The notes under the pieces are model-generated. The model was not told the DNA's origin, made no database searches, and saw only the letters and a program-made list of their open reading frames with translations. The position numbers and the translations under genes were made by a program. Positions 22,309 through 26,544 of a DNA stretch of 43,164 bases are shown in pieces. Position 1 is the stretch's first letter; every line of letters begins with the position of its first letter. The stretch covers positions 1-43,164 of the forward strand of contig CAJXEJ010000016.1 of NCBI GenBank assembly GCA_913052475.1, given 5' to 3'. The DNA comes from an uncultured Dehalococcoidia bacterium. GTDB taxonomy: Bacteria > Chloroflexota > Dehalococcoidia > Lucifugimonadales > Lucifugimonadaceae.

Positions 22309-23220
22309 TTACAGATCGGAAACGTTCAGATCGAGAGAGTTCATGAGATCGTCGAGTTCCGCTCTTGTCGAATCGTCGATCGGTGGGCTTGGTGGCCGGA
22401 CGTCGGCTGTGGTTGTGAATCCGCGACGTTTCATTATCTCTTTACGAATGGCGAGGCTGATACCGACTGAGTTTTCGTAGCGAATCAGCGGAATCCACTT
22501 GTAGAAGATACTTCGTGCTCGTTCAACATCGCCCCTTGCGATGTACTTGTGAACTGCAACCAGAACTTCAGGGTAGGCAAAGCCGGTCATGGTTCCAATC
22601 GCACCTCGACGAAGTTCTTCGAACAGGAAGGCACCGCCGAGACCACCAAATATTCCCATGCTACCGCCAGTGGCTTCAACAACTCTCGTTATCTTCTGGG
22701 GTGTCGGTGGATCTTCGAGTTTCAGGTATTTTGCATCAGGTAACTCTTCGTGGAGCTTGCCGATGAATGCAGGATCGAGATGAACACCCGTCTGTTCGGG
22801 CAGATCCTGCACGACGATCGTAATCTCGGTCGCTTCCTGTGCCGCAGCATAGTAGGCACACGTTGAAATCGGGTTGGGCTTTGCCATTTTCGCGGGAGCG
22901 ACCATTACGGCGGTAGCACCAGCAGATTGGGCGTCTCGGACTCGCGACGCCAGTGCTCGTCCACTTTCGGCACTGGTACCGACTGTGACCGTCAGGTCAT
23001 CTCCGGCTGCTGCAACTACAGCGTCGATCACTGGCGCCCGTTCTGCGTCGGTGAGGCGATGGGCTTCACCCATTACGCCCAACGTTACGACTCCGGTGCA
23101 GTGAGCGTTTCGGGCCACTTCAACAAGCCGCGTAAATGAAGCTGTGTCGACCTCGCCATTGGTGTCGAACGGCGTTGGCAACATGAAATGAACTCCGTCT
23201 AGTTTTCTGTCGTTTGCCAA
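22309..23220 (-). CDS. DapA-family (N-acetylneuraminate lyase/DHDPS) class I aldolase
   Basis: TIM-barrel aldolase forming a Schiff base with a pyruvate-like keto acid. Lys167 in AKYLKLEDPP is the expected Schiff-base lysine. However, the canonical GTTGE reads GVMGE (residues 48-52), and the YNxPxRTG tyrosine motif reads VQDLPEQTGV (137-146). Two residues of the DHDPS proton relay are therefore replaced, and a role in lysine synthesis is doubtful. It is better described as a family member of unknown substrate. Length 303. TTG start with an AGGAG ribosome site nine bases upstream. Divergent from the siroheme reductase leader. Confidence 0.85.
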   Translation of the reverse strand: MANDRKLDGVHFMLPTPFDTNGEVDTASFTRLVEVARNAHCTGVVTLGVMGEAHRLTDAERAPVIDAVVAAAGDDLTVTVGTSAESGRALASRVRDAQSAGATAVMVAPAKMAKPNPISTCAYYAAAQEATEITIVVQDLPEQTGVHLDPAFIGKLHEELPDAKYLKLEDPPTPQKITRVVEATGGSMGIFGGLGGAFLFEELRRGAIGTMTGFAYPEVLVAVHKYIARGDVERARSIFYKWIPLIRYENSVGISLAIRKEIMKRRGFTTTADVRPPSPPIDDSTRAELDDLMNSLDLNVSDL

Positions 23221-23367
23221 GTCGAATTACTCCTAAGAATCTTGTGCTGTAGTTGAAAACCGTGTGTATGTTGACCTCGTTCGAGGATGTACGCAAGATA
23301 TCTGGAAAGGAGTTTGTCATTTTGATTCGCGCCAATATTGACGCGATGAGTGCTAAAATTTTTTGCA

Positions 23368-23388
23368 TATGATGAACGTGTATACAAT
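23368..23388 (+). promoter_or_regulatory. Candidate promoter for the leader ORF and siroheme reductase
   Basis: Two -10-like hexamers occur, TATGAT (23368-23373) and TACAAT (23383-23388), each one base from TATAAT, in an AT-rich stretch. No good -35 lies 16-18 bases upstream of either. With TATGAT as -10, transcription would begin near 23380, only about ten bases before the leader ATG. Confidence 0.35.
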
Positions 23389-23390
23389 TC

Positions 23391-23456
23391 ATGGTTGCTG
23401 TTGTACTGGTCGCTAAGCGGGGCCGAGCTTTAGTAGCGCGTGGATTGAATTTGTGA
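23391..23456 (+). CDS. 21-codon putative leader peptide
   Basis: ATG 23391 to TGA 23454-23456 encodes MVAVVLVAKRGRALVARG followed by LNL. An in-frame TGA lies 18 bases upstream, so this ATG is the only start. There is no Shine-Dalgarno sequence, which would fit a leaderless or nearly leaderless message. Its stop codon ends one base before the hairpin of the intrinsic terminator at 23457. The arrangement (short ORF, terminator, then a biosynthetic gene 54 bases later) is that of transcription attenuation. The peptide lacks Cys and Met runs; it is rich in Val, Ala and Arg. Whether it is translated is an inference. Confidence 0.4.
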   Translation: MVAVVLVAKRGRALVARGLNL

Positions 23457-23488
23457 CCCTGCCTCCCGACGATGTGGCGGGGTTTTTT
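23457..23488 (+). terminator. Intrinsic terminator/attenuator before the siroheme reductase
   Basis: CCCTGCC (23457-23463) pairs with GGCGGGG (23476-23482), seven pairs including one T-G wobble, with a 12-base loop and six T residues (23483-23488). It lies 54 bases upstream of the GTG start of the reductase and points towards it. No other gene on this strand needs a terminator here, so premature termination control is the likely role. Confidence 0.65.
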
Positions 23489-23541
23489 GATCGTGCAAAC
23501 CAACTTCAACTTTGACGATTTATTTGAAAGAGGACCGAACG

Positions 23542-25332
23542 GTGACCACTGGAAGAGTTGATACGAAAGACTGGATTCCGAATCCAGACAACGCTCACGT
23601 ACTGAAGATTGACGGTCCTGAGATCGCCAACTTTGAGGACCAGGTAAAGCTGTTCCAGTCTGGTGCGAAAGATGAAATCGAATTCCTGCGATTCCGACTT
23701 CGACAGGGCGTCTACGGTCAGCGTCAACCCGACCGCCAGATGGTTCGTGTAAAGCTTCCATTTGGGGGCGTTACGGCGCATCAATTGGATGTGCTGGGTG
23801 AAGTCGCGGAAAAGTTCGCTCCCCTTAAAAAAGGTCACATCACCACTCGAGAAAACATTCAGTACCACCATGTTCCGCTTGGTGAGTCGACCGATTTGTT
23901 ACGCACTATCGGTGACGCCGGAATGTCATCACGAGAAGCTTGCGGAAACGTTGTACGAAACGTGGTCGCTGCTCCGTCGGCGGGTGTGTCGAAAGACGAA
24001 GTTTTCGACGTGACGCCTTACGCAGGTGCGTACGCACGTTATTTCCTACGACACCCCACCACCCAGAACATGCCCCGAAAATCGAAAGTCGCTTTCTCTG
24101 GTTCAGAAAAGGATGAGGCGATGGTGCTGATGCACGATGTTGGCATGGTCGCTCGAATTCAGGACGGCAAGCGTGGCTTCAAGATCGTTGTCGGTGGTGG
24201 ACTAGCCACCGATGCAATGATGGCGGAGACGTTGAAAGAGTTTGTTCCTGTCGAATATTTGATCAAGAACTGTGAGGCTATACTTCGTATTTTCAACCGC
24301 CAGGATGAAGAGCGGAAGAGCATTGCAAAGGCTCGAATCAAGTTCACCATCGCTCGGCTCGGCATCGAGAAGTTCCGGGATATGGTCGATGAAGAACTGA
24401 AGGGTGATTGGGCGAACAAAGTAATCGACCTCGATTCGTTGATGTATGTCGATGACGAATCGATCGATGCTCCTGTGGTACCGACCGACGCCACTCCCGA
24501 GCCGACTGATGACGCCGTTTACGACAATTGGAAGCGAACGAACGTCGAAGCGCAGAAACAAGACGGTTTCAACGTGGTTTACGTCCGAGTCGAGCGTGGG
24601 GACATCTACGCCAACCAGTGGCCGTCACTTGCCGACATCGCCCGCAATTTTGCTGGCGGTCGCGCTCGATTCGATCAACAACAGAACATTGTCTTCCGAT
24701 GGGTTCGCACCGAGTCACTATTCGACATTTACAAGGCACTTGGAGCTATCGGTCTCAGTGAAGCGGGTCGCGAGACGATTCGCGACGTTGTGACCTGCCC
24801 GGGTACTGATTCCTGCAAGCTGGGTATTACTTCTTCGATGGGCCTGAATCAGGCTCTTGGAGAGGCACTCGATGAGATGGGGGATCTCGATCCTCTGGTC
24901 GAGAAAATGCACATCAAGGCGAGCGGTTGCCCCAACTCCTGTGGTCAACATCACATCGCCAGCATCGGATTTCACGGTGCGGTTGTTAAAGGCCCCGGTG
25001 GGCAGGTACCGGCCTACGAATTGTTCCTCGGTGGCCGCTCGAATGAAGAAGCAGGCACCAAGATTGGTGAGCGTGTGAAGGCTCGAATTCCTGCTAAGCG
25101 TGCCCCTGAGGCGCTGAAATCGGTTCTCGATACCTACCTTTCCGAGCGCAATGACGGCGAAGAGTTTGCTGACTTCATTGAGCGATTCGGCGTTGCCAAG
25201 TTCGAAGAAGAGTTTGGCAAGTTGAAAGCTGAGCTTGGCCCGCTCGATCGGGACAATATCCAGACCTACATGGACTGGGGTAAGACCGTGGTCTACAAGC
25301 TGGAACGTGGCGAGGGTGAGTGCGCAGTCTAG
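23542..25332 (+). CDS. Ferredoxin-dependent nitrite/sulfite reductase
   Basis: Siroheme/[4Fe-4S] enzyme that reduces sulfite to sulfide or nitrite to ammonia with six electrons from ferredoxin. The start is GTG 23542, preceded by AGAGGA seven bases away, rather than TTG 23512. Cluster ligands are Cys419 and Cys425 (CPGTDSCKLGIT) and Cys463 and Cys467 (ASGCPNSCGQHHIASIGFHG). Two ferrodoxin-like half domains are visible (RQGVYGQRQPDRQMVRVKLP near 50 and VYVRVERGDIYANQWPSLAD near 345). Length 596 matches NirA/Sir of actinobacteria and Chloroflexota. Sulfite versus nitrite cannot be settled by eye. A strong terminator follows at 25363, and a ferredoxin is encoded nearby on the other strand. Confidence 0.92.
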   Translation: MTTGRVDTKDWIPNPDNAHVLKIDGPEIANFEDQVKLFQSGAKDEIEFLRFRLRQGVYGQRQPDRQMVRVKLPFGGVTAHQLDVLGEVAEKFAPLKKGHITTRENIQYHHVPLGESTDLLRTIGDAGMSSREACGNVVRNVVAAPSAGVSKDEVFDVTPYAGAYARYFLRHPTTQNMPRKSKVAFSGSEKDEAMVLMHDVGMVARIQDGKRGFKIVVGGGLATDAMMAETLKEFVPVEYLIKNCEAILRIFNRQDEERKSIAKARIKFTIARLGIEKFRDMVDEELKGDWANKVIDLDSLMYVDDESIDAPVVPTDATPEPTDDAVYDNWKRTNVEAQKQDGFNVVYVRVERGDIYANQWPSLADIARNFAGGRARFDQQQNIVFRWVRTESLFDIYKALGAIGLSEAGRETIRDVVTCPGTDSCKLGITSSMGLNQALGEALDEMGDLDPLVEKMHIKASGCPNSCGQHHIASIGFHGAVVKGPGGQVPAYELFLGGRSNEEAGTKIGERVKARIPAKRAPEALKSVLDTYLSERNDGEEFADFIERFGVAKFEEEFGKLKAELGPLDRDNIQTYMDWGKTVVYKLERGEGECAV

Positions 25333-25700: not shown

Positions 25701-25970
25701 TTACGAGGCGTTTGCGCCTGGCTCCGAGGAGTCGTAATCGTATTCGTAATTCAGATTGATGAACTCTTGCTGATCTGCGGGGACTTGATCTTCAGGGAAG
25801 ATAGCGTTTACTGGGCAAACCGGTTCGCAAGCTGCGCAGTCGATACATTCATCCGGGCTGATGAAAAGCTGGTTGTCACCAGGCTTTGAATAGATACAAT
25901 CAACTGGACATACGTCTACGCACGCACCATCCATTACGTCGACACATTCCTTGGCGATGATGTAGGTCAT
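25701..25970 (-). CDS. fdxA: 7Fe (3Fe-4S/4Fe-4S) ferredoxin, FdxA type
   Basis: Soluble electron carrier. Start chosen at ATG 25970, giving the family opening MTYIIAKECVDVMDGACVDV; an upstream in-frame start at 26003 adds 11 unconserved residues. Ligands by comparison with Azotobacter FdI are Cys9, Cys17 and Cys52 for the 3Fe cluster and Cys21, Cys42, Cys45 and Cys48 for the 4Fe cluster. Cys25 corresponds to the free Cys24 of FdI. The acidic C-terminal tail is usual. Length 89. It may supply electrons to the siroheme reductase encoded on the opposite strand, but that is inferred from proximity only. Confidence 0.92.
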   Translation of the reverse strand: MTYIIAKECVDVMDGACVDVCPVDCIYSKPGDNQLFISPDECIDCAACEPVCPVNAIFPEDQVPADQQEFINLNYEYDYDSSEPGANAS

Positions 25971-26050
25971 CCGATGAAGCTCCTGAGATGTTGCGACCAG
26001 CACTTCTGTTGGCTGACCGACTCTATGGCAAATCTACGGCAGATTACACG

Positions 26051-26145: not shown

Positions 26146-26544
26146 TTAGTGTCCGCCACAGGCGCAACCGCCGCCGCCGCCGCCGCAGCCACCGCCACCG
26201 CCACCGCCACCGCAACCACCGCCGCCACAGCCACAGCCAGATGCGAAGTTGGGGTTGGAGATTACGAAACCTGAGCGTTCGAATCCTTCGACATAGTCAA
26301 TGCTCGAACCCTCAAGCATGGGGGCGCTCTCGTCATCGACAAGTGCTTTGACGACGCCTTCGACTACTGTATCGGATTCGGAAGGGGTTTCTTCCAGCCC
26401 GAATACATATTCGATGCCACCGTGATCGGCTGTTGCAACAGCGACACGAAGGTACTGACCTTCAGCATCCTGTTCCTTGAGAACTTCTAGCAACTTGTTT
26501 GTTGCTGCCTCGGTGAACTCTATAACGGTCGTAGAACTGACCAT
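26146..26544 (-). CDS. HesB/IscA-like A-type Fe-S protein with Cys/Gly tail
   Basis: The fold matches A-type iron-sulfur carriers: VIEFTEAATNKLLEVL at the start, VVKALVDDESAPMLEGSSID in the middle and FERSGFVISNPNFASGCGCG near the end. The first ligand, normally Cys in GGCSGxxY, reads ADHGGIEY, placing His41 at that position. The usual CGCG ending (Cys104, Cys106) is extended by a glycine-rich tail with Cys111, Cys120, Cys127, Cys129 and a terminal Gly-Gly-His. The DNA encoding the tail (26155-26235) is a GCC/CCG-type simple repeat. Start ATG 26544 has a GGAG site six bases upstream. It may serve in cluster delivery or metal storage. Confidence 0.85.
   Translation of the reverse strand: MVSSTTVIEFTEAATNKLLEVLKEQDAEGQYLRVAVATADHGGIEYVFGLEETPSESDTVVEGVVKALVDDESAPMLEGSSIDYVEGFERSGFVISNPNFASGCGCGGGGCGGGGGGGGCGGGGGGCACGGH

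Follow-up and report, generated by a model that had tools for sequence, protein, structure and literature searches.

The attenuators of the trp, his and ilv type combine a short ORF, in which codons of the pathway amino acid stand in tandem, with alternative RNA pairings (2:3 versus 3:4) and an intrinsic terminator, and none of them is known to use cysteine codons. A study of M. tuberculosis sets out the same attenuation scheme for ilvB1 (PMC13236596). For cysteine, Canestrari et al. 2020 (PMC8764745) are cited for cysteine-responsive translation attenuation in mycobacteria by leaderless poly-Cys ORFs, and Shell et al. (PMC4633059) state that such uORFs, if confirmed, would be the first cysteine-directed attenuation in bacteria. 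A further study (PMC1262725) predicted leaders with runs of Cys codons for Mycobacterium, Propionibacterium acnes and Bifidobacterium, reports that conserved terminator hairpins are absent there, and suggests Rho.

We analysed a stretch of 43,164 nucleotides (the window), contig 16 of a 2.13 Mb genome, 90.6% complete, of the SAR202 Chloroflexota, a lineage reported to make up 10–30% of deep-sea planktonic prokaryotes (PMC10444878). The genome belongs to the genus of Ca. Lucifugimonas marina, and the reductase-bearing named records closest to the window were those of Ca. Lucifugimonas marina JH1073 (89% identity) and of SAR202 cluster bacteria. Upstream of a reductase gene we found a short ORF with three tandem Cys codons followed by a terminator (Table 1), and we read this arrangement, with a probability of roughly 0.86, as a transcription attenuator of the Yanofsky type that responds to cysteine and has a leaderless ORF as its leader, by which the cell would most likely make the reductase only when cysteine is short. 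Like the trp, his and ilv attenuators, it has tandem codons of one amino acid, here probably that of the pathway, in a short ORF, predicted alternative 2:3 and 3:4 pairings and an intrinsic terminator before the gene; it differs from them in its cysteine codons, its predicted leaderless leader, the single ferredoxin-type reductase that it precedes and its occurrence in Chloroflexota. The poly-Cys ORFs of mycobacteria are likewise leaderless and carry consecutive Cys codons before sulfur-assimilation genes (on our side, a likeness in silico), but they are reported to act by translation attenuation, whereas here an intrinsic terminator follows and 125 nt lie between the leader stop and the gene. 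The actinobacterial leaders of PMC1262725 likewise have several Cys codons in a row close to their stop, before cys operons or cbs; they are reported to be without terminators, in contrast to the intrinsic terminator found here. Searches of an open-licence library gave no attenuator of transcription by cysteine from Chloroflexota; what therefore appears to be new is attenuation of the trp type that would take cysteine as its signal and has a leaderless leader.

Table 1. Positions of the features of the leader region and the reductase gene in the window.
Feature	Position	Strand	Basis or remark
Extended -10 element TGCTAAAAT	23351..23359	+	TG 23351-23352, TAAAAT 23354-23359; ends 9 nt before the first ATG
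Leader ORF MMNVYTIHGCCCTGR, 15 codons	23369..23416	+	Starts at ATG 23369 or 23372, ends with TAA 23414-23416; leaderless by prediction
Cys codons TGC TGT TGT in tandem, where the ribosome is predicted to stall	23396..23404	+	Frame of the leader ORF
Region 1, pairs with region 2 (protector hairpin round the stop codon)	23406..23413	+	Candidate
Region 2, GCGGGGCCG, antiterminator 5' strand	23417..23425	+	Genus alignment, group test, minimum-free-energy fold of the window with ribosome at third Cys codon
Region 3, UGACCCUGCC, antiterminator 3' strand; terminator 5' arm from 23456	23454..23463	+	Alignment, ribosome model
Region 4, GGCGGGGT (3' arm of the terminator) with the T run	23476..23488	+	Sequence; stem covariation
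Reductase ribosome-binding site GAAAGAGG	23528..23535	+	Sequence; GA(A/G)AGAGG-like purine-rich box kept there in most genus loci
Ferredoxin-dependent nitrite/sulfite reductase family gene, 596 aa, start codon GTG	23542..25332	+	Pfam NIR_SIR and NIR_SIR_ferr

The reductase scored 238.8 bits against NCBIfam NirA, under the cut-off of 523, and its nearest solved structure was 1zj8, the NirA of M. tuberculosis, which we take to be an enzyme acting on sulfite. We read it as a putative assimilatory sulfite reductase, a role that we infer from the Cys leaders and the cysH- and cysD-type genes of the genus.

The original prediction placed a translation-dependent attenuator before this siroheme reductase, and that general idea is supported by our analysis. 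Several of its elements were also confirmed: a 21-codon ORF is open from ATG 23391 to TGA 23454–23456, no Shine-Dalgarno sequence stands ahead of 23391, a terminator hairpin with a T run (23483–23488) precedes the gene, and the reductase start lies 54 positions past 23488. The 21-codon ORF, proposed as the functional leader, did not survive the comparison with its relatives. We aligned 18 same-genus sequences, namely the window, 16 other intact loci and L079, where the reductase is broken. The ATG of the 21-codon ORF was common to only one of the 17 other sequences (L018) and its frame ended at or within 6 columns of the TGA in none of them, and we rejected it as a leader on these grounds. The conserved leader ORF overlaps it in a different frame, so that the Cys run of the leader reads as VVV in the frame of the 21-codon ORF. 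The statement that the peptide has no Cys was correct for that frame, but the overlapping frame holds Cys-Cys-Cys at 23396–23404; since this is what the conserved leader encodes, cysteine is the likely signal, that is, the sulfur amino acid that had been ruled out. We therefore consider it very improbable that the 21-codon ORF is translated and that the terminator is kept from forming by a ribosome at the TGA of this ORF, even with an open frame and a stop that abuts the stem in the window. The -10-like hexamer TACAAT (23383–23388) was discarded as a promoter for this ORF, because it would start the RNA within it.

The genus set comprised 19 genomes: 17, including the window's own, had an intact reductase, one had a broken copy and one a fragment. 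A Cys-cluster ORF was present at the matching place in all 17 intact loci and persisted in the broken-reductase locus. Before the stop codon, several of these leaders ended in CCCTGR, and the others in CICTGR, CCTGR, CCTFR, CCTSR, CRCNN, CSCPRY and similar endings. Relatives used both TGC and TGT at the Cys columns, the residues ahead of the cluster varied, and outside the cluster the peptides were widely different. The genus-level scan recovered a terminator after the Cys cluster in 13 of the 17 intact loci and none in the remaining four (G002, G003, G008 and G016).

At the level of the order, 154 of 201 genomes had a reductase match, and we examined the upstream regions of 111 genomes from 29 families; the regions of two genomes (G006 and G031) were taken from a separate search only. 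The strict scan required an ATG or GTG ORF of 6–24 codons in which the same residue occurred twice within three codons, followed by a GC-rich stem with a T run beginning 8–60 nt past the ORF stop. A Cys leader with a terminator was found in 72 of the 111 regions, representing 21 of the 29 families, while the highest counts for any other amino acid in the same scan were 18 of 111 for Leu and 15 of 111 for Thr and Ala. For Cys, the reverse complements yielded 0 of 111, and five dinucleotide-shuffle sets yielded 0, 0, 0, 0 and 1 of 111. Among the 39 regions missed by the strict scan, 11 had a Cys-cluster ORF by the genus-level scan rule; reading the other 28 by eye, we found three with a weaker Cys leader and terminator and 25 with none, the latter including all five loci of one genus of the window's own family. 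The element is thus found widely across the order, although some lineages have lost it or never acquired it. In other Chloroflexota, outside the order, a Cys leader with terminator was found in 0 of 20 reductase upstream regions, and a Cys-cluster ORF without a terminator in two of the 20. On this comparative evidence, the Cys leader with its terminator is a real, strongly conserved regulatory element.

Under a looser rule, a leader–terminator pair was recovered in 82 regions. Two of these (G038 and G141) were dropped by eye, and the remaining 80 leaders, from 22 families, were used for the pairing, ribosome and promoter tests; several of their chosen terminators are weak (G003, G021 and G031). 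The f35 leaders (e.g. L155, L156 and L161) carry CCCCC...GGGGG after the Cys codons and inside the leader ORF, where a protector hairpin seems to form before the stop, unlike in other families.

Between families, the only common features that we saw were the Cys codons, a stop-proximal G-rich stretch and the terminator, which argues against a protein- or metabolite-binding leader (riboswitch or T-box) that holds the ORF by chance. The position of the leader and its terminator would suit such an element, but no Rfam family matched 23200–23600 at E-values up to 1, and for want of a covariance-model match we regard it as ruled out, with next to no probability left.

The leader peptides bear on another explanation, in which a constitutive 5' terminator is accompanied by a small Cys peptide with a function of its own (metal or redox) and not by a codon sensor. 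Some peptides are alike within a clade: in the upstream regions of G045, G050, G097 and G079 (L133, L152, L147 and L149) they agree past the Cys codons (MR..DDLFHLC), a likeness that could also mean peptide-specific arrest. Outside such clades, however, the Cys cluster alone is kept, and the competition between pairings differs from that of shuffled linkers, as described below for the ribosome model, which speaks against a constitutive terminator; we find this explanation quite improbable.

The Cys leader ORFs look leaderless. In the window, the transcription start is predicted at about 23366–23369, and across the genus TGCTAAAAT or TGCTAGAAT, with few variants, stands at the equal position. 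The window has only a poor -35 box (2 of 6 matches), with an extended -10 element instead, and is in the minority in this respect. Considering the 80 leaders, the motif TAnnnT lay 5–12 nt ahead of an in-frame start in 77, most commonly at 8–10 nt. Both a -10 and a -35 box with at least 4 of 6 matches were present in 52 of the 80, versus 0 of 775 reverse-strand control starts, a control that applies the stricter two-box rule and is comparable with the 52 and not with the 77. A Shine-Dalgarno core preceded the chosen start in one of the 80 leaders. A general promoter scan of the region was uninformative. Just 5' of the extended -10 element, at 23325–23345, a block like GATTCGCACCAATAT is alike in several loci of the genus; it is perhaps an activator site, given an extended -10 without a -35 box.

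The terminator of the window consists of ACCCTGCC (23456–23463), a 12-nt loop, GGCGGGGT (23476–23483) and Ts at 23483–23488, and is separated from the leader stop by 39 nt. A simple terminator scan missed it because the loop exceeds the limit of that scan (3–8 nt). As the gene 5' of the leader region is divergent, there is no upstream transcript for the hairpin to end, and a plain terminator of the upstream gene was ruled out. The single sequence gives little, since the 206-nt region folded no better than its shuffles (z -0.64), and the significance of the element comes from comparison. For the covariation analysis we aligned 14 of the 17 intact loci, leaving out L074, L085 and L072 (of G016, G003 and G002), whose terminators were unalignable. 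The terminator stem was paired in 93.7% of the cells, with a covariation score reached by six of 500 shuffles and three pairs changed on both sides, a number that 12 of 500 shuffles reach. The comparison with relatives, which the original prediction had put forward as its own check, thus bore out the hairpin by covariation in these 14 sequences and not the 21-codon ORF.

The competing pairing, of 23417–23425 with 23454–23462, was paired in 72.9% of the cells versus at most 51.4% when slid, with five pairs changed on both sides (reached by 31 of 500 shuffles); its covariation score in the genus was not above shuffles, 179 of 500 of which reach it. The protector hairpin (1:2) was paired in 67.9% of the cells versus at most 53.8% when slid, and gave no covariation signal in the genus (215 of 500 shuffles reach the score). 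Over the 80 leaders, which are related by descent so that these pairing statistics are not independent draws, the 2:3 duplex had a mean z of -1.21 against shuffles, with 45 of the 80 below -1, and the 1:2 hairpin a mean z of -0.71. When each leader's own partner was ranked against the partners of other genomes, the mean ranks for the 2:3 duplex were 0.33 and 0.38, where 0.5 is expected. A competing antiterminator is thus supported in silico for the group, and weakly for the window alone. The linker of the window is 4 nt longer than that of its relatives, and in the free window RNA (23385–23450) the Cys codons are paired within a long hairpin.

According to our proposed mechanism, the RNA would begin at the leader ATG or a few bases from it, and a ribosome would load on this 5' end without a Shine-Dalgarno site. 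With ample Cys-tRNA, the ribosome would pass the CysCysCys codons to the stop codon and cover region 2 (GCGGGGCCG), leaving region 3 free for region 4; with the terminator formed, transcription would stop short of the reductase. With cysteine short, it would stall on the Cys codons and cover region 1 only; regions 2 and 3 would pair, no terminator would form and the reductase would be made. The original prediction had the opposite sense, with a ribosome at the stop blocking the hairpin; at the true stop, the model predicts that termination is permitted.

We modelled the ribosome by holding the nucleotides beneath it unpaired. Before region 4 exists, region 3 was held by upstream sequence with a mean of 0.61 for a ribosome at the first Cys codon and 0.30 at the stop; the stalled value exceeded the stop value by over 0.2 in 50 of the 80 leaders, with the reverse in three. 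The mean stalled-minus-stop difference was 0.316, versus 0.100 with shuffled linkers (sd 0.025, 12 sets). With the complete RNA at equilibrium, the position of the ribosome made little difference on average (mean terminator probability over the 80 leaders, 0.84 stalled and 0.93 at the stop). Most leaders favour the terminator wherever the ribosome stands, so the switch has to be a kinetic one. For the window, with a 12-nt footprint and values that vary with the footprint, the terminator probability was 0.98 both in the free RNA and with the ribosome at the stop; a ribosome on the Cys codons brought it to 0.60 (first codon), 0.90 (second) and 0.12 (third). The effect of the window alone was equalled by 33 of 400 shuffled linkers, and before region 4 is made its region 3 was held at 0.70 with the ribosome at the stop, about as much as when stalled (0.43, 0.75). 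As a model, the switch is well supported for the group and suggestive for the window sequence alone.

Genes of the PAPS/APS-reductase family were found in 16 of the 19 genus genomes, and were missing from G012 and from the two genomes whose reductase is broken (G011, locus L079) or reduced to a fragment (G001). In G011 and G001, a loss of sulfate assimilation is probable. The assignment of genes to the cysH and cysD types, by length, motif and position, is our own. A Cys-cluster leader preceded 8 of 13 cysH-type loci in the genus (L169, L171, L173, L174, L176, L177, L179 and L183), with a terminator scored in seven of the eight. Cys-rich leader ORFs were also present 5' of 10 of 13 cysD-type loci (L182, L180, L184–L189, L191 and L192), of which one had a scored terminator, with an imperfect stem. 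The cysD-type locus of the window's own genome (L182, G000:C54) has the leader MCPPMPGCVHVIFCMCCTNTEAVC, directly followed by a stop codon. The cysD leaders, many of which end in C.CCTNTKAAC or TAAC, are not followed by a clear T-run terminator, and the mode of attenuation at these genes may be different. The Cys leaders at both gene types support sulfite, and not nitrite, as the substrate of the reductase. ATP-sulfurylase (PF01747) and full cysE were each above the cut-off in 0 of the 19 genus genomes.

The Cys runs of the cysD leaders, with their near lack of scored terminators, and the similar leaderless poly-Cys design described for mycobacteria would both suit translation attenuation, in which the stall alters access to the ribosome-binding site of the reductase and the terminator is a side element. 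At the reductase, however, the leader stop lies 125 nt from the gene, which has its own ribosome-binding site, and the GC-rich stem and T run after the leader are kept by covariation and accompany the Cys leader in the 72 regions of the strict scan; we thus judge this mode unlikely for the reductase. Under transcription attenuation by cysteine, the sulfate assimilation of SAR202 (sulfite reductase, cysH and cysD) would probably form a cysteine regulon governed by leaderless Cys leaders and not by a protein regulator, with intrinsic termination at the reductase and cysH. This regulon would have arisen within the order, as the 20 regions from outside it had no Cys leader with terminator.

These results name a candidate signal and switch for a sulfur-assimilation gene of SAR202, a lineage with few cultured members, and would extend ribosome-mediated attenuation to cysteine with intrinsic termination. 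As the leader ORF seemingly has no 5' untranslated region, the usual pacing between RNA polymerase and ribosome must differ here. The Cys leaders can, in addition, serve to mark sulfur genes in genomes where the function of such genes is unclear. Finally, past the reductase gene, we observed on the minus strand (26146–26544) a Fe-S_biosyn (HesB/IscA-type) protein with a long Gly/Cys tail, adjoining a 4Fe-4S ferredoxin gene (25701–26003, minus strand).
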